Notes under the pieces: generated by a model
What the model saw: only the letters and a program-made list of their open reading frames with translations
Databases searched by the model: none
What the model was told of the DNA's origin: nothing
Part shown: positions 5,054 through 18,610 of the stretch, one piece after another
Layout: each line of letters begins with the position of its first letter
Numbering within the stretch: position 1 is the first letter of the stretch
Made by a program: the position numbers and the translations under genes
DNA from: Armatimonadota bacterium
Lineage (GTDB): Bacteria > Armatimonadota > UBA5829 > DTLH01
Length of the DNA: 43,477 bases
Assembly: GCA_029551395.1 (NCBI GenBank)
Contig: JAKPFN010000050.1
Location: 1 to 43,477 of the forward strand
Direction of reading: 5' to 3'

Positions 5054-6874
5054 TTATGGTCTGACTACCAAAGTCGCCGGATAAGCAGAACCTGCAAGAG
5101 GCATGGTAAGGATTGTAAACTCCTTAGCCTGTCCCGCAGGCACTCGTGTGCTGAAAACCTCGAATTCATTAGGAGGACTTACTACCTTTATCCCTACTAC
5201 CTTGCCGTTTATGACGAACAACCCGGAAGCCGGGCCTGCTGAAGGCTCAAAGACCACCTTAATGGTTCGGTCCTCACCTGATGGGTTTTCGACCCGAACT
5301 TTGATTCTATAAATGACTCCGTAGTTGCCTTGCAGCTCTTTTGCGGATAAAGCGTCGGGTATGGCATATTTACCGATTCTGATAAATGCCCACTGCCCGC
5401 CTACAACGTAATTTGCCTCTACATCTCTGGCAGGAGTTGGATATACATGGTCAGATATTTGAGTCGGGATATGCCAATCGCTGATAGGCGCAGTAGCACC
5501 ACTGGATAGCTGACCAGCTTCAGGCACATCAGCAGAGACTTTGACATATACATCTTCTCCTGATAGCTGCCTGATGTCGATTATTCCGCTGGCAGTGTTG
5601 GTATGCTCCAGATTATCCGCATAAAGCACTCGCTTGGATTTTGGAGGTATACGATGCACTAAGCCTACATTGTCCAGATAGTCGCGAAGGAATTCTCTCC
5701 CTGCAACATAGCCGACAACTACAGTGTCTACCATAGGCCGGGATATTCCGCTGACAGTCTGGACTTTGGCTGTCGTGTTGCCTGCGTTGATTAACTCGAC
5801 ATTGAACCGCACACGCTTACCAAGCATATTCTGATGATGGAAAAACAACCGGCTGCGTTTGTCCAGTTCGAGTTTTCCGGTAAAAAGCACTCCGTACCTG
5901 GTCAATCGTTCAGGGTTGTTGCTGTAGAGCAAGTCATCTGCCGCCTTGTATGAGACTGGCAGATTGATAATATCTACCGGAGCAGCCAAATCTGCAGGAA
6001 TCAGGTTCGGGCCTTTCGTCTTGACTGGGACCAGCACCCTGAGAGTCTTGCCTACTTCCAAAGATTTAGCGGTGAGTTTTGGCGTGCCAAAGCTTGCTGT
6101 TGCCCCAGGTTCCAGTATGATGCTTTCCGAAGCTACACTCTCAGCAGCTTTTGCCAGAATCCATTCAGGAGCCGGATTCCCCGTTACCTCAATGGCGGCA
6201 GGCACTCCAACTTTGGCAGCATAACGCTTTACATTGACCGTTAGAGTAGTCTTGTAACCTTGGCAATCAATTTCTATGGTACTGCGGCCAACGGACTTGC
6301 CCTTAACAACAATCGCCCGCTTAACGTTATCAATGGTAGATGTTGCTACTTCCGGGTTTCCATCACTGGAGACAATTACACCAGTCAAAGCGCCGCCGAT
6401 ATTGGCAGTCCTGTTTTCATTCTCAGGCACTACTATCTCTTTCGGCTCTACCGTTATTGGTGGAAGCGAAAAGTATTCTCTGAGGAGCTTTGCCCAGTTT
6501 TGTGCCAGCGCTTGGGCAGACATCCCGGCTGCTTTTGCATCCGCTGCTGTGGCAATGCAAATCAATTGTTCGCCTACTACTACATTAGCCCGGTTCTTGT
6601 TAACAGACTTGACTGTTATAGACTTCCATCCGCCTGATGATGCAAGCGGCTTAAGCCTCTCAGCAGTAATCCGGGCACGCTCAACGGGACTAAGCCCTCC
6701 GTTTGAAACGCGAAACCTGATTGCAGTCCGCCCATTAACATTTACTACGGCTTGATTGCCTACAGACGAATATTCGACTTTAGGAACGAATTCTGCTGCA
6801 CAAACAGCACCTGCTAAAAAAATGAGAACCGCGCAAGCACCAAGGAGCACTGCACGGTACGACGGATGCGTCAA
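5054..6874 (-). CDS. Secreted Ig-like-domain protein of unknown function
   Basis: It has an N-terminal signal peptide (AVLLGACAVLIFLAGAVCAA, cleavage likely near VCAA). A domain follows with the pattern NGGLSPVERARITAERLKPL (mature residues roughly 45-125). Then comes an Ig-like segment (about 150-215; VEPKEIVVPENENRTANIGG ... KGKSVGRSTIEI). Several further beta-rich segments follow, probably Ig-like repeats. No catalytic motif is visible. The open frame extends to GTG 6889, but TTG at 6874 has GGAGG 8 nt upstream and starts just before the signal peptide, so I prefer it. The gene is isolated; an envelope or structural role is inferred from its export only. Confidence 0.75.
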   Translation of the reverse strand: MTHPSYRAVLLGACAVLIFLAGAVCAAEFVPKVEYSSVGNQAVVNVNGRTAIRFRVSNGGLSPVERARITAERLKPLASSGGWKSITVKSVNKNRANVVVGEQLICIATAADAKAAGMSAQALAQNWAKLLREYFSLPPITVEPKEIVVPENENRTANIGGALTGVIVSSDGNPEVATSTIDNVKRAIVVKGKSVGRSTIEIDCQGYKTTLTVNVKRYAAKVGVPAAIEVTGNPAPEWILAKAAESVASESIILEPGATASFGTPKLTAKSLEVGKTLRVLVPVKTKGPNLIPADLAAPVDIINLPVSYKAADDLLYSNNPERLTRYGVLFTGKLELDKRSRLFFHHQNMLGKRVRFNVELINAGNTTAKVQTVSGISRPMVDTVVVGYVAGREFLRDYLDNVGLVHRIPPKSKRVLYADNLEHTNTASGIIDIRQLSGEDVYVKVSADVPEAGQLSSGATAPISDWHIPTQISDHVYPTPARDVEANYVVGGQWAFIRIGKYAIPDALSAKELQGNYGVIYRIKVRVENPSGEDRTIKVVFEPSAGPASGLFVINGKVVGIKVVSPPNEFEVFSTRVPAGQAKEFTILTMPLAGSAYPATLVVRP

Positions 6875-7071
6875 ACCCTCAACCTCCACATAGAAAAACG
6901 TATATAGTGCGTGCTTTCACTGAATTTGTGGATTTCTTCGGCTGCACCTTCAGAAAAAGTAAAACTAATCCACAATCTTCAGCGAAATCCGCCACCAACT
7001 CTTGATTCTATACATCCTCTTATGACGAGTCAACCAAGCAAGGATTACTTTTGCTATACGAGACTGATGTA

Positions 7072-13058: not shown

Positions 13059-13087
13059 TTGACTCAATGCTTCAGCTAACCTATAAT
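13059..13087 (+). promoter_or_regulatory. Sigma-70 promoter of the sugar isomerase gene
   Basis: TTGACT (13059-13064) and a perfect TATAAT (13082-13087) are separated by 17 bp. The expected start near 13094 leaves a leader of about 29 nt carrying GGAGG before the ATG at 13123. This excludes the open-frame extension to 13087. Confidence 0.8.
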
Positions 13088-13122
13088 TGCGCCATCATCA
13101 GACTGATCAACTGGAGGCCATC

Positions 13123-14100
13123 ATGGCAGAATTCAAGTATTCAGCAGGACTTTGGCTATTTGGAAATACCGGAGACCGGTTCAACCTGGCAGGTTACAAG
13201 CATCCAGTGCCTATAAAAGAACAAATCCAAACGGCTGCCAGTGTAAAAGGTATAACCGGAATCGAGTGCCATCAAACAGATTTTGATGAGATCAACCCAA
13301 AGGATTACGCCAGAATTGCAACCGACTGCGGCCTGGTTACTACCAACGTCAATACAAATGTGTGGGGGTCTGCAAAGTGGATGTACGGCGCATTTGCCCA
13401 TCGCAGCCCTGATGTGCGGGCAGATGCCATAGCTGAGGGTAAGCGGTCAGTGGATATGGCGCGGGAAATCGGCAGTCCTTCCGTTGGTCTGTGGCTTGGC
13501 GCTGATGGGTTCGATTACCCGTTTCAAGTGGATTATCTTACCCAGTGGGATTTGCTGGTAGACGGCGTCAGGCAGGTTGCTGATTATGCAAAACCAGATA
13601 TCAGGATAGGTATTGAGTATAAGTTGCGCGAGCCAAGGACCAGGATGACCATCGGTGATGCAGGTAAGGCGCTTGCTTTTGTTCAGGAAGTGGGATTCGA
13701 TAACGTAGGCTGCGTGATTGACTTCGGCCATGCGCTGCAGTGCCGGGAAAGCCCTGCTGAATCCGTCGCAATCTTTGCCAGACACAACAAGCTCTTCAAT
13801 GTCCACTTCAACGACAGCTTCAGAGACTGGGACGACGATATGATTCCGGGCACAGTCCATATCTGGGAGACGCTGGAGTTCCTGTACTACTGCAAAGTCA
13901 CCGGTTATCAGGGCTGGTTCGGACTTGATATGTTCCCCTATAGAGAAGACTCCATATCTGCAGCACAAATGGCTGTCGATAATATCATCGCAATGGCTGA
14001 TGCACTAAATGAACTAGATATCCCTGCACTGAAGAAAGCTCAAGAATCTATGGATGCAATAAAATCACAGAAGGTTATTCGTAGACTCATATTTAAGTGA
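13123..14100 (+). CDS. Xylose isomerase-like TIM-barrel sugar isomerase/epimerase
   Basis: This 325-aa protein has the pattern of AP-endonuclease-2/xylose-isomerase-like TIM barrels. Probable metal ligands lie in GIEYKLREPR (Glu), CVIDFGHALQC (Asp, His) and NVHFNDSFRDWDDDM (His, Asp), with a late Asp in GWFGLDMFPY. It probably isomerises or epimerises a keto-sugar or inositol-like substrate; the exact sugar cannot be read from sequence. The ATG at 13123 has GGAGG 5 nt upstream. It precedes the HzsA-like gene by 86 nt containing a 12-bp hairpin, so co-transcription is uncertain. Confidence 0.88.
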   Translation: MAEFKYSAGLWLFGNTGDRFNLAGYKHPVPIKEQIQTAASVKGITGIECHQTDFDEINPKDYARIATDCGLVTTNVNTNVWGSAKWMYGAFAHRSPDVRADAIAEGKRSVDMAREIGSPSVGLWLGADGFDYPFQVDYLTQWDLLVDGVRQVADYAKPDIRIGIEYKLREPRTRMTIGDAGKALAFVQEVGFDNVGCVIDFGHALQCRESPAESVAIFARHNKLFNVHFNDSFRDWDDDMIPGTVHIWETLEFLYYCKVTGYQGWFGLDMFPYREDSISAAQMAVDNIIAMADALNELDIPALKKAQESMDAIKSQKVIRRLIFK

Positions 14101-14136: not shown

Positions 14137-14166
14137 CAGGCCAATATCTTTCTGGATATTGGCCTG
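14137..14166 (+). terminator. 12-bp perfect hairpin upstream of the HzsA-like gene
   Basis: CAGGCCAATATC (14137-14148) pairs perfectly with GATATTGGCCTG (14155-14166) around a TTTCTG loop. No T-run follows. It ends 20 nt before the ATG of the next gene, so it may be an imperfect terminator, an mRNA boundary between the isomerase and the cytochrome genes, or a leader structure. Confidence 0.55.
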
Positions 14167-14186: not shown

Positions 14187-16697
14187 ATGAAGATAAGCCG
14201 GAGAGCTGTCAAATTTTTACTGTTGATCTCAGTGATTCTGCTGGCAGCATGTGTTCTATTTGGTGCGTTGAGTTCTCCTGGAACAGTCCAGAGGTTAGAT
14301 AACAAGGCAGATAACCTCAGCAGCCCAGAGTATGTAGGATCGATTCTGGATAAAGATAACGCCTGGCTCGATCCTTTGTTGGCAATACTAGGCAGCGAGC
14401 CAGTCGAGGCTATTGCAGAAGCTATCGAAGCACATCCTGAGGCATATACTGAACTGAAGATAATCGAAGAATGGATGGCTCAGGATGGCTTGCTGGATGC
14501 GGGATCGTTTTCACCTGAAGCTGTTAAGCGTCCTTTTGACGAACTGGGTGCAGATGGCAGCGAACTGGCGCTGGAAATGGACAGACTCCTTCAATCAGGC
14601 ACTCCCGTAACTGATCCCCAAGTTATCGAGTTGTATCTCCAGGCTTGTGAGAAGCGACGGGCTAAACGGTTCAGCAAGCACTTACCTGTTCTGAGAAAAA
14701 TCGTCTTTACCAAACATTTTGATATGGGCGGTTCTCATTACGCCTATACTGAAGCCCTGTCAGATGCAAACAGCGAGAGGAACATCACTCCCGGAGCAAG
14801 CCTTTGTGTTCTGGAGTCTGACGGCATATATGGAGAAGTCCGCACGCTGATAGACGAGCCGAATGGAGTAGTCCGCGACCCGGATGTCTCGTACGACGGC
14901 AAGCGTATTCTCTTTTCATGGAAGAAATCGGTCTTGGAGGATGATTATCACCTTTATGAGATGGAAGTTTCCAGCGGGAAAATCCGCCAGTTGACATTCG
15001 GGCTTGGATACGCAGACTACGAAGGGGTCTATCTTCCAAACGGAGACATCGTATTCAATTCGACGAGATGCGTGCAGTCGGTTGATTGCTGGTGGACTGA
15101 AGTGAGCAACCTTTTTACCTGCGATGGCGACGGCAAGTATATGCGCAGGCTGACTTTCGACCAGGTGCATACTAATTATCCGCAGGTAACTCCTGATGGA
15201 AGGATAATCTACACGAGATGGGACTACAGTGACCGAGGCCAGATGTTCGTGCAAGGGCTGTTCCAGATGTTTCCCAATGGAACAGGCCAGACAGAGTTCT
15301 ATGGAAACAATTCATGGTATCCCAATTCCATACTGCACGCCCGAGCAATTCCAGGCACAAACAAGGTTGTTGGCATATTCTCAGGGCATCACACGCTTCA
15401 AAAAGGTTGGCTGGGGATAATCGACCCAACATTGGGCAGGCAGGAAAACAGCGGGGCACAGCTTATCTGCCCGATTCGGCCAGCCGAACCGGTGCCTGAT
15501 CCTGCTAAGAACCAGGACGCACTGGATTATTACGCACAGACTGGAGACCAGTTCCAGTATCCTTATCCGCTTAGTGAGAGAGAGTTTTTGGTCACTTACA
15601 AGCGGGATGGTCAGCCCTGGTTTGTGATTGCCTTTGTTACAGATGACGGCAAGAGGGAAGTCCTGGCTGCCGATCCCGACAATTCCTGCAACCAGCCTAT
15701 TCCGCTGGCTCCTCGTCCTAAGCCCCATATACGACCCAGTTCAGTGGACTACCGGAAGACCGATGGAGCCGTCTTTATGGAGAATATCTATCTCGGGCCA
15801 GGTCTTAAGGGCATCCCTCGCGGAACTATCAAGGAATTGAGAGTAGTTGCTCTGGAGTTCAGGGCTGGTGCTGTCGGTGTAAACGGCAATGTGGGAGAAG
15901 CAGGCTGGTCCGATGTGACTACCCCTATATCTATCAGAGGTGCATGGGATGTCAAGAAGGTTCTGGGCACAACTCCCGTGTTGGAAGATGGTTCTGCGTT
16001 CTTTATAATTCCGGCAAGGACTCCTGTGTATTTCCAGGCGCTTGATGAGAAAGGGCATGTTGTCCAGAATATGCGGAGTTGGATTACACTTCAACCGGGA
16101 GAGACTGCAAGCTGCGTCGGCTGTCATGAGAGCAAGAATACTGTTCCGGTCTCATCGAAGCTTGCCAAAGCAATGGAGGCAGGCCCGCAGCCGCTCAAGC
16201 TCTGGCAAGGCGAGCCTCGCGGATTCAGCTTCGCAAAAGAGATACAGCCGATACTGGATAAGCACTGTGTAAGCTGTCACAACGCTGATCAGGGAGCGGC
16301 ATTGAGTTTTTCAGGCAAAACTACGCCTGATCCTGAAACTGGGCGCAAATGGAGCGATTCATACCTCGCGCTGGCTAATCGGGACTATGTAGACTGGATC
16401 GATCCCCAGTCAGGGCCGCCAATGCGAGCGCCTTACAGCCACGGAGCAGCAAAGAGCAAGCTGGTAGCTATGCTCGAACAAGGCCACATGGGAGTGGAGC
16501 TTTCAAAAGATGAGATGGAGCGCATCTGCTGCTGGATAGACCTTCTGGTTCCTTACTGCGGAGACTATATGGAGGGCTTTGAAGGAGAATTTCTGGAGAA
16601 ATACCAGCGTTTTCTGGATAAGCGCAAACGCTGGGAAGCAGAAGAAGCTCGTAACATCGAAGAACTCATCAAAGTCAGATACGGAGGAGGCCGGTAA
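14187..16697 (+). CDS. HzsA-like diheme c-type cytochrome (hydrazine synthase alpha-subunit-like)
   Basis: This 836-aa exported protein begins with a hydrophobic signal whose ILLAAC sequence is a good lipobox (Cys22). A helical region follows (~45-160). Then comes a TolB/WD40-like beta-propeller (~165-480) with repeated blade motifs such as DPDVSYDGKRILFSW and YPQVTPDGRIIYTRWD. A C-terminal domain carries two haem-binding motifs, CVGCH (643-647) and CVSCH (694-698). This order matches the alpha subunit of hydrazine synthase and the many HzsA-related proteins of non-anammox bacteria. Cys295 lies close to the place of a zinc-ligand Cys that I recall in the anammox enzyme. Four residues after His647 there is Asn, where I recall a haem-ligand Tyr. 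ATG 14187 follows a GGGG site. The gene is coupled to the next by TAATG. Confidence 0.82.
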   Translation: MKISRRAVKFLLLISVILLAACVLFGALSSPGTVQRLDNKADNLSSPEYVGSILDKDNAWLDPLLAILGSEPVEAIAEAIEAHPEAYTELKIIEEWMAQDGLLDAGSFSPEAVKRPFDELGADGSELALEMDRLLQSGTPVTDPQVIELYLQACEKRRAKRFSKHLPVLRKIVFTKHFDMGGSHYAYTEALSDANSERNITPGASLCVLESDGIYGEVRTLIDEPNGVVRDPDVSYDGKRILFSWKKSVLEDDYHLYEMEVSSGKIRQLTFGLGYADYEGVYLPNGDIVFNSTRCVQSVDCWWTEVSNLFTCDGDGKYMRRLTFDQVHTNYPQVTPDGRIIYTRWDYSDRGQMFVQGLFQMFPNGTGQTEFYGNNSWYPNSILHARAIPGTNKVVGIFSGHHTLQKGWLGIIDPTLGRQENSGAQLICPIRPAEPVPDPAKNQDALDYYAQTGDQFQYPYPLSEREFLVTYKRDGQPWFVIAFVTDDGKREVLAADPDNSCNQPIPLAPRPKPHIRPSSVDYRKTDGAVFMENIYLGPGLKGIPRGTIKELRVVALEFRAGAVGVNGNVGEAGWSDVTTPISIRGAWDVKKVLGTTPVLEDGSAFFIIPARTPVYFQALDEKGHVVQNMRSWITLQPGETASCVGCHESKNTVPVSSKLAKAMEAGPQPLKLWQGEPRGFSFAKEIQPILDKHCVSCHNADQGAALSFSGKTTPDPETGRKWSDSYLALANRDYVDWIDPQSGPPMRAPYSHGAAKSKLVAMLEQGHMGVELSKDEMERICCWIDLLVPYCGDYMEGFEGEFLEKYQRFLDKRKRWEAEEARNIEELIKVRYGGGR

Positions 16698-18610
16698 TGC
16701 GCAGGCTGCTCATGTTTATATCCGCAGCATCGATGCTTGCGGTTTTTGTTCCCACAGTTATCAAAACGGCATCAGGAGAAGGTGAAAAAACCGTTATTTA
16801 CAGGTCTCCTTTCTTTGTAGTATCATCTCAGGATGGAAAAAAGCTGTATGCCTCGGATAAAACCGCGGATTGCATCGTCGTCATAGATGCATCGGCTGGT
16901 AAAAAGCTCACCGAATGGCCTGTTGTTAAGGAACCGACCGGGCTTGCACTTTCTGCTGACGGAAAAACCCTCTATGCCGCATCCTTTGCCTCTGGAACTG
17001 TGTCTGCCATCGATACAACCACTGGCAAGGTGTTAAAACAGGCGGAAGTTGGCGTTCGTCCGATGGAAGTCGTCTCAGGCGGGAAATCCAGCCGGTTGTA
17101 TATCTGCAACAGAGCATCGAACAGCGTTTCCGTAGTCGATTTGAAGGATTTTCGCAAGATAGCTGATGTTGCTGTTGACCGAGAGCCTTGTTTTGCCTCA
17201 CTTACTCCTGATGAAAACACTCTAGTTGTGGCAAACGGCCTTCCCACTGACTCAAGCAATGCTCCAGTTGTTGCCGGAACAGTGAGTATTATCGACACCA
17301 AAGCCCTGCGTGTTACGGGGACTGTAAAGCTATGTAATGGCGCTACGAACCTTCGAGGGATTGTAGTTGATCCGAATGGAAACTGGGCTTACTGCGTTCA
17401 CACTATATCCCGGTTCCATCTGCCTACAAGTCAACTGGACAGGGGATGGATGAATACATCGGGCTTGAGCATCATCGATTTACGGTCGAAACAGCTTTAC
17501 ACTACGGTACTGCTTGACAGCGTTGACCACGGCGCGGCAGATCCGTATGCTCTGGCTATCTCTCCCGATAGTTCAAAGCTGTTTGTAAGCCTCGGAGGCA
17601 CGCATGAGGTTCAAGTCGTCGAGATTGCCAGGCTCCATGACCTTTTGATGGGAAGACTTCCAGAGAACCTGCCGGAAAGAATTGGCGATCCAAGCACGGA
17701 TGTATGGAAGCGAATCAAGGAGAACCCAGAAGCCCGACGGGAACTGGTCAATGATCTTGGAGCGTTGGACTGTATGGGGCTGCTCCGAAGGTTCTCAAGC
17801 GGCGGAATCGGGCCGAGAGGTATATGTGTCAATCCGGCAGGGAGTCAGTTGTTTGCAGCTAACTATTTCTCCGGGTCAGTAGCGGCTATTGATACAAAAA
17901 CCGGAGAGCATATTTCGGTTATCAGTGCAGGAAACCAGCCGCCGGAAGATCTGGTGCGTAGGGGAGAGCGGATTTTCCAGGATGCAAGCATCTGCTATCA
18001 GTCCTGGCAAAGCTGCACGACGTGTCATCCTGACGGCAGGAGCGATGGCCTTAGATGGGACCTTTTGAACGACGGCATGGGCAATCCAAAAAAGACCAGA
18101 TCGCTTGTGAAGTCCTTTGAGACCAGTCCGGTTATGAGTATGGGTGTCCGTGCAGATGCAAAGACTGCTGTTCGGGCAGGTTTCCGGTTTATTCTGTTCA
18201 ATGATGGCATAGGGGCAGATATAGAAGCAGTCGATGCATATTTGAAAAGCCTTGAACCTGAGCCAAGCCCGTATCTCGGGAAGAATAACTCACTCAGCAG
18301 CTCGGCAAATAACGGCAGGAAGCTGTTTTTCGACAAAGCCCGGTGTGCCGATTGCCACAAAGGCCCGCTTTTCACAGACCTGAAGCTATATCAAGTAGTT
18401 CCGCCAGCAAGTTTCGACAGGCCAGGTGACACATTCATTACACCAAAGCTGGTGGAAGTCTACCGCTCAGCCCCATACCTTCACGATGGCCGCGCAGCCA
18501 CGCTGATGGACATGCTGACCACGCACAACAAGGATGATAAGCACGGGATGACTTCAAAACTCAGCAAAGAGGAGCTTTCTGATCTGGTGGAGTATCTGAT
18601 GTCGCTTTAA
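16697..18610 (+). CDS. Beta-propeller / diheme cytochrome c peroxidase-like fusion (HzsB+HzsC-like)
   Basis: The 637-aa protein has a signal peptide (about residues 1-28). A YVTN-type beta-propeller follows (about 35-420; blades include SSQDGKKLYASDKTADCIVV and LALSADGKTLYAASFASGT). The C-terminal MauG/CCP-like domain has CTTCH at 440-444 and CADCH at 550-554, plus the typical APYLHDGRAATL segment. The propeller-then-CCP order equals hydrazine synthase beta followed by gamma, which I recall as fused in some anammox organisms. The gene starts inside the stop of the HzsA-like gene, so the two products are probably made in equal amounts and form a periplasmic or cell-surface complex. A YVTN-CCP protein of unrelated function is the main alternative. 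Confidence 0.82.
   Translation: MRRLLMFISAASMLAVFVPTVIKTASGEGEKTVIYRSPFFVVSSQDGKKLYASDKTADCIVVIDASAGKKLTEWPVVKEPTGLALSADGKTLYAASFASGTVSAIDTTTGKVLKQAEVGVRPMEVVSGGKSSRLYICNRASNSVSVVDLKDFRKIADVAVDREPCFASLTPDENTLVVANGLPTDSSNAPVVAGTVSIIDTKALRVTGTVKLCNGATNLRGIVVDPNGNWAYCVHTISRFHLPTSQLDRGWMNTSGLSIIDLRSKQLYTTVLLDSVDHGAADPYALAISPDSSKLFVSLGGTHEVQVVEIARLHDLLMGRLPENLPERIGDPSTDVWKRIKENPEARRELVNDLGALDCMGLLRRFSSGGIGPRGICVNPAGSQLFAANYFSGSVAAIDTKTGEHISVISAGNQPPEDLVRRGERIFQDASICYQSWQSCTTCHPDGRSDGLRWDLLNDGMGNPKKTRSLVKSFETSPVMSMGVRADAKTAVRAGFRFILFNDGIGADIEAVDAYLKSLEPEPSPYLGKNNSLSSSANNGRKLFFDKARCADCHKGPLFTDLKLYQVVPPASFDRPGDTFITPKLVEVYRSAPYLHDGRAATLMDMLTTHNKDDKHGMTSKLSKEELSDLVEYLMSL

Follow-up and report, generated by a model that had tools for sequence, protein, structure and literature searches.

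The window, by which we mean the whole stretch of 43,477 nucleotides analysed here, is contig C6 of an Armatimonadota genome of 3.58 Mb that is divided among 165 contigs and is 98.7% complete. Two genes of the window, here called alpha-like and betagamma-like, form an overlapping pair (Table 1). The TAATG at 16695-16699 contains both the stop codon of the alpha-like gene and the start codon of the betagamma-like gene, and a GGAGGAG sequence is located just 5' of the second start. An earlier note on this DNA had called both reading frames, their four CXXCH motifs and the TAATG overlap, and all were found as described. Both proteins are predicted to be exported, based on their hydrophobic N termini and covalent-haem motifs, and the genome carries cytochrome c maturation genes. 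In the 86-nt gap 5' of the alpha-like gene, a 13-bp hairpin (CAGGCCAATATC...GATATTGGCCTG) was observed with no run of T residues 3' of it, and the gap had a folding energy of -26.1 kcal/mol (z -3.7).

Table 1. Coordinates of the gene pair, its sites and other features mentioned in the text (window positions unless a locus is named)
Feature	Position	Strand	Protein residues or length	Basis
Alpha-like gene	14187..16697	+	836 aa	ORF call
Betagamma-like gene	16697..18610	+	637 aa	ORF call
GGAGGAG ribosome-binding site and TAATG overlap joining both genes	16683..16699	+		sequence
Alpha Cys301	15087..15089	+	301	alignment of homologues
PF18582 HZS_alpha middle domain	15822..16130	+	546-648	
CVGCH, haem alphaI site	16113..16127	+	643-647	aligned with Kuenenia C583/C586/H587
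Asn651 in place of HZS haem ligand Tyr591 (H+4)	16137..16139	+	651	alignment
CVSCH, haem alphaII site	16266..16280	+	694-698	aligned with Kuenenia C685/C688/H689
YVTN propeller, beta-like part	16802..17926	+	36-410	NCBIfam profile and Foldseek
CTTCH, haem gammaI site	18014..18028	+	440-444	PDB sequence match and alignment
CADCH, haem gammaII site	18344..18358	+	550-554	PDB sequence match and alignment
His616, equivalent of gamma His332 (distal ligand of haem gammaII)	18542..18544	+	616	alignment
Hairpin 5' of the alpha-like gene	14137-14166			
Xylose-isomerase-like gene	13087-14100	+		
ORF without Pfam match	5054-6889	-	611 aa	
Fused alpha-betagamma ORFs	L097:9794-14239; L098:9779-14224		1481 aa	
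RidA/FkbO-Hyg5-like genes	L042:11198-12205; L055:10698-11840; L205:1967-3442; L045:11144-12301; also L071, L073, L075, L197			
Octahaem HAO-family gene (G248)	L053:6419-8044			
Multihaem gene cut by contig end (G249)	L052:10139-11046			

The genes surrounding the pair were mostly housekeeping genes. Directly upstream, on the same strand, lies a gene for a xylose-isomerase-like TIM barrel that resembles L-rhamnose isomerase and is possibly unrelated to the pair. A GH38 mannosidase gene lies 3.5 kb downstream, and these two genes are the only hints of sugar metabolism near the pair in the window. Elsewhere, a reverse-strand ORF had no Pfam match at E 1e-4. Enrichment analysis of Pfam families among neighbours in relatives found none that was strong, and sulfatases, sugar kinases, esterases and Gfo/Idh/MocA enzymes each occurred at a few loci. 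Eight alpha/betagamma loci from several lineages also encode a RidA/FkbO-Hyg5 chorismatase-like protein (about 335-490 aa), in most cases no more than three genes away. A second pair was found on contig C161 of the same genome, with a RidA/chorismatase-like gene between its members, and it adjoins FAH-hydrolase and LarA-like genes.

Anammox bacteria have as their key enzyme hydrazine synthase (HZS), which, to our knowledge, was long held to be without homologues. The earlier note had proposed that the pair is homologous to the alpha and beta/gamma subunits of HZS. The alpha-like protein is composed of an N-terminal hydrophobic segment, a helical domain (approximately residues 55-168), a propeller, the HZS_alpha middle domain and a C-terminal cytochrome c domain. 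A Pfam profile search matched PF18582 to the middle domain with 110.3 bits (cut-off, 26.6; E 7e-32), and the single match in a PDB sequence search was HZS alpha (5c2v_A). An AlphaFold model of the protein (pLDDT 86.8) had 5c2v_D as its best PDB match by Foldseek, with an E value of 1.8e-29 and a TM score of 0.56 over about 790 columns. Moreover, hhalign comparison of a profile of window-type alphas with a profile of anammox HzsA gave 99.6% probability over 575 columns.

Similar evidence was obtained for the betagamma-like protein. Its best NCBIfam match was hydrazine_BC (181 bits, E 2.6e-53), hydrazine_beta and hydrazine_gamma matched separately, and PDB sequence search returned 5c2v_B over residues 36-324 and 5c2v_C over residues 417-559 and 579-637. 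The AlphaFold model (pLDDT 80.1) had 5c2v_B as its best Foldseek match in the PDB (E 1.1e-30; target TM score, 0.87). 5c2v_C was absent from the top 50 PDB matches because the gamma part of the model, which was built with no haem and from 23 sequences, folds poorly; homology to HZS gamma is thus indicated by sequence profiles and PDB sequence matches. The CCP_MauG Pfam model also matched, at 27.2 bits against a cut-off of 25.6, and that domain contains two CXXCH motifs. Compared with HzsABC of Kuenenia (PDB 5c2v), the window proteins have the same alpha/beta/gamma domain order and folds, with 22-32% identity in the aligned parts, and the fusion of beta to gamma is as in HZS of Scalindua japonica. 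The gene order differs in that alpha is downstream of betagamma in Kuenenia and upstream in the window. We conclude from these matches, which are far beyond chance, that homology of the pair to HZS alpha and HZS beta plus gamma extends over the length of the proteins.

Homology did not extend to the scores that define HZS. The profile searches for PF18582, HzsA and HzsBC that the earlier note had called for found matches in both proteins, and those to the NCBIfam HZS models were far below the cut-offs. NCBIfam scores were 58 against 800 for alpha and 181 against 1250 for betagamma, further scores against HZS equivalog or exception cut-offs were 134.6 against 560 and 97.3 against 625, and full-length anammox alphas scored 1351-1642. 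No anammox HzsA over the cut-off was present in 291 genomes of the phylum, which is therefore not the one that contains the anammox bacteria.

To compare residues, anammox HzsABC references were taken from genomes passing the equivalog cut-off, and positions follow Kuenenia numbering as in reference L189 (CXXCH at 583 and 685 in alpha and at 102 and 225 in gamma), with roles as described in PMC12607021 and PMC12758564. All four CXXCH sites of HZS are retained. Also kept is the bis-His pair of haem gammaII, H229/H332, of which His332 is the distal ligand (PMC12607021); it corresponds to His554/His616 and was conserved in 23 of 23 betagamma homologues, with His332 also present in 7/7 anammox sequences. 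Alpha His767 is one column off the HZS distal His772 of haem alphaII in a MAFFT alignment and in register with it in hhalign, and the CXXCH of that haem is kept.

In contrast, the window has no counterpart of Tyr591, Cys303, gamma Cys165 or gamma His144. Asn651 takes the place of Tyr591, the iron ligand of haem alphaI in HZS. In an alignment-free check, a tyrosine four residues after the histidine of the first alpha CXXCH was found in none of 125 homologues but in 10/10 anammox sequences, and the anammox Tyr591 fell in a gap when alpha profiles were compared by hhalign. The zinc ligand Cys303 is replaced by Asn375, and this cysteine is also missing from Scalinduaceae (PMC12758564). Cys165, the third thioether of haem gammaI, was missing from the window and from all 23 aligned betagammas. 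Gamma His144 aligned with Ser481 and was His in 0/23; Trp, the residue conserved at this place in MauG/MbnH/CCP dihaem enzymes, was found in 3/23, although sequences align weakly over gamma 136-180 and the position is uncertain. Residue 301 of alpha, in the propeller, was Cys in 71/71 non-anammox homologues and Glu in 10/10 anammox HzsA. A genome titled 'Candidatus Anammoximicrobium' (L146) carries the non-anammox type of alpha, which has no tyrosine at the Tyr591 place. Judged from its residues, the pair lacks those needed for hydrazine, and we conclude that it is not a hydrazine synthase.

Gene pairs of this type are already published. Co-localised alpha and fused betagamma homologues were reported from non-anammox Planctomycetota and Desulfobacterota as clades I-IV, with key HZS residues not conserved (Hagglund et al. 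2025; PMC12758564). The window pair shares the co-localisation, the fusion and the missing residues, and our results agree with that work on residues. Residues were described for clades I-III, and compared with these descriptions the window pair, which has two haems in alpha and two in betagamma, matches none of them; the pair may belong to clade IV, whose residues the paper leaves undescribed. In 2023, hzsA-like and fused hzsBC-like pairs were reported in Phycisphaerae UBA1845 (PMC10732223), with hzsA-like genes directly upstream as in the window and with beta and gamma parts that match Kuenenia at bit scores similar to those of the window. Those pairs were read as possible novel anammox, whereas two Phycisphaerae pairs analysed here (L078 and L083) lacked the HZS residues, like the window. 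The residue test is extended here to these pairs and to the lineage of the window. We add the Armatimonadota host, single-chain fusions, co-occurrence and copy-number asymmetry, all of which go unmentioned in the main texts of PMC10732223 and PMC12758564. A literature search found nothing useful on the function of YVTN-MauG fusions or of Armatimonadota HZS homologues.

The relationship between alpha and betagamma was surveyed across genomes, all of which were metagenome-assembled. Alpha was found in 30 of the 291 phylum genomes and betagamma in 24, every one of which was within the alpha set (hypergeometric 7e-30, kinship ignored), when at most four betagamma candidates were scored per genome. 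Betagamma was also found in 20/20 alpha-bearing genomes tested, 14 of which were reached via named loci of several phyla. Within the order of the window's host, 2 of 19 genomes, from different families, hold either gene, and both hold both. At least 16 of the 24 betagamma genomes of the phylum have the gene next to an alpha, and adjacency recurs in both gene orders and in many families. Among loci of the closest alpha clade, which contains the orthologue of the window, betagamma was directly adjacent in approximately 10 of 80. Two more loci, L097 and L098 of Phycisphaerae, encode alpha and betagamma as a single chain with four CXXCH motifs (653, 705, 1283 and 1391) in the order of the window. 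The two fusions are 92% identical to each other, and residues 70-883 and 878-1481 match the window alpha and betagamma at 53% and 40% identity, respectively. Neither outcome that the earlier note had named as refuting its proposal was observed: profile matches were found, and the two genes co-occur and adjoin in relatives, even to the point of fusion. We conclude that the fusions provide strong evidence that alpha and betagamma act as one unit. The single multihaem unit that the note had envisaged is therefore strongly suggested, and the complex itself is one that we infer.

Alphas outnumber betagammas. When every candidate was scored, G047 had 18 alphas, G248 and G249 each had 15, and G009 had 9; these four genomes and G258 each had a single betagamma, and the genome of the window had two. 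PF18582 gave 2-26 matches per genome (matches, not curated genes), and a scan of genome contigs found 302 relatives of the window alpha. In the alpha tree, all anammox HzsA sequences group in a single clade with a very long branch, and the clade of the window is common to Planctomycetota, Hydrogenedentes and Armatimonadota; near relatives were also found in Verrucomicrobiota and Lentisphaerae. Accessory domains on 48 alphas included F5/8 type C (14/48), FGE-sulfatase-like (8/48), NPCBM (3/48) and CBM6 (1/48) domains, and the window alpha itself has no carbohydrate-binding domain.

We lean, by a little, toward a reading in which the pair belongs to the HZS superfamily and forms a tetrahaem redox complex in the periplasm that makes no hydrazine, with a shared betagamma serving substrate-facing alphas. 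Alpha and betagamma would form an alpha-betagamma complex resembling HZS. The gamma part would work as a dihaem enzyme of the peroxidase/MauG type, with bis-His haem gammaII as electron carrier and His-ligated haem gammaI offering an open site for a small ligand, such as peroxide, O2 or NO. The substrate would be held by alpha, whose haem alphaI would have an ordinary His ligand. Betagamma is probably a redox module that the alphas share, with substrate specificity residing in the alphas, because many alpha paralogues accompany usually one or two betagammas and because carbohydrate- or galactose-binding-type domains are often found on alphas. The predicted substrates are organic and probably carbohydrate linked.

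One alternative is that betagamma is a maturase. The targets of MauG and MbnH are proteins whose genes lie close by, and by analogy the dihaem part would oxidise residues of alpha to build or repair an active site, leaving alpha alone to catalyse. The dihaem domain shares two CXXCH motifs and a PYLHDG-type motif with MauG, MbnH and bacterial cytochrome c peroxidase, and besides HZS gamma it matched MbnH-family models in 14/23 betagammas and MauG models in 10/23. A single betagamma with many alphas would also fit. The window protein differs from these enzymes, however, by its YVTN propeller fusion and by an HZS-type His332 as the distal ligand of gammaII. These features, the GLxWDL and D-x-HG-x-TS-x-L motifs and the single-chain fusions resemble HZS, in which gamma belongs to the catalytic complex. 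We consider a maturase unlikely.

A second alternative, which we consider improbable, is that the pair acts on another nitrogen compound, for example in reduction or detoxification of NO or hydroxylamine, rather than in hydrazine synthesis. HZS ancestry is consistent with such a role, and the HAO family (PF13447) is present in 13 of 24 pair genomes. Moreover, an octahaem HAO-family cytochrome (nearest PDB entry, 4qo5) is encoded directly 3' of the alpha orthologue in G248, a close relative, and a multihaem gene cut by a contig end occupies the same place in G249. Anammox genomes also have an HAO-family gene downstream of hzsA. HAO adjacency was dropped as a general clue, as it was limited to G248 and the partial gene in G249 and was found in 0/80 other alpha loci. 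Furthermore, PF13447 had no match in the genome of the window or in 10 other pair genomes, while anammox controls had 12-14 matches, and Cys165 and His144 of the HZS NO site are missing. The earlier note was right that there is no other sign of anammox here, but its suggestion of N-compound oxidation or radical coupling finds support neither in the residues, given the absence of Tyr591, gamma Cys165 and gamma His144, nor in the context, as the genome yielded no HAO-family gene.

It is very unlikely that alpha and betagamma are two independent haem proteins merely encoded side by side: alpha orthologues often have no adjacent betagamma, but the reading frames overlap in the window, the chains are fused in two genomes, co-occurrence is strict, and adjacency arises repeatedly in both gene orders and in many families. 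Least credible of all, to the point of near exclusion, is a genuine hydrazine synthase in an unrecognised anammox bacterium, as all three HZS subunits are represented and beta is fused to gamma as in two anammox genomes (L192 and L194) and Scalindua japonica (PMC12758564), but both proteins score far below the cut-offs, Tyr591, Cys165 and His144 are missing, no gene of the HAO/hydrazine dehydrogenase family was detected, and anammox HzsA is a clade of its own on a long branch.

Beyond the shared tetrahaem complex that we favour, a broader view is offered tentatively and may well prove wrong. The HZS superfamily could be an enzyme class that is large and for the most part uncharacterised in Armatimonadota and PVC bacteria. 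A single betagamma peroxidase module would there be shared by as many as two dozen substrate-specific alphas, sometimes within one chain. Its haem site would differ from that of HZS, maybe with involvement of the invariant propeller Cys301, and anammox HZS would be a specialised offshoot. In genome surveys, a claim of anammox from hzs-like matches should await a check for Tyr591, Cys165 and His144. For expression, the fused 1481-aa version offers a target encoded by a single gene. The pairs show a role of the HZS scaffold outside anammox, and the combination of few betagammas, many alphas and single-chain fusions points to a sizeable enzyme system.
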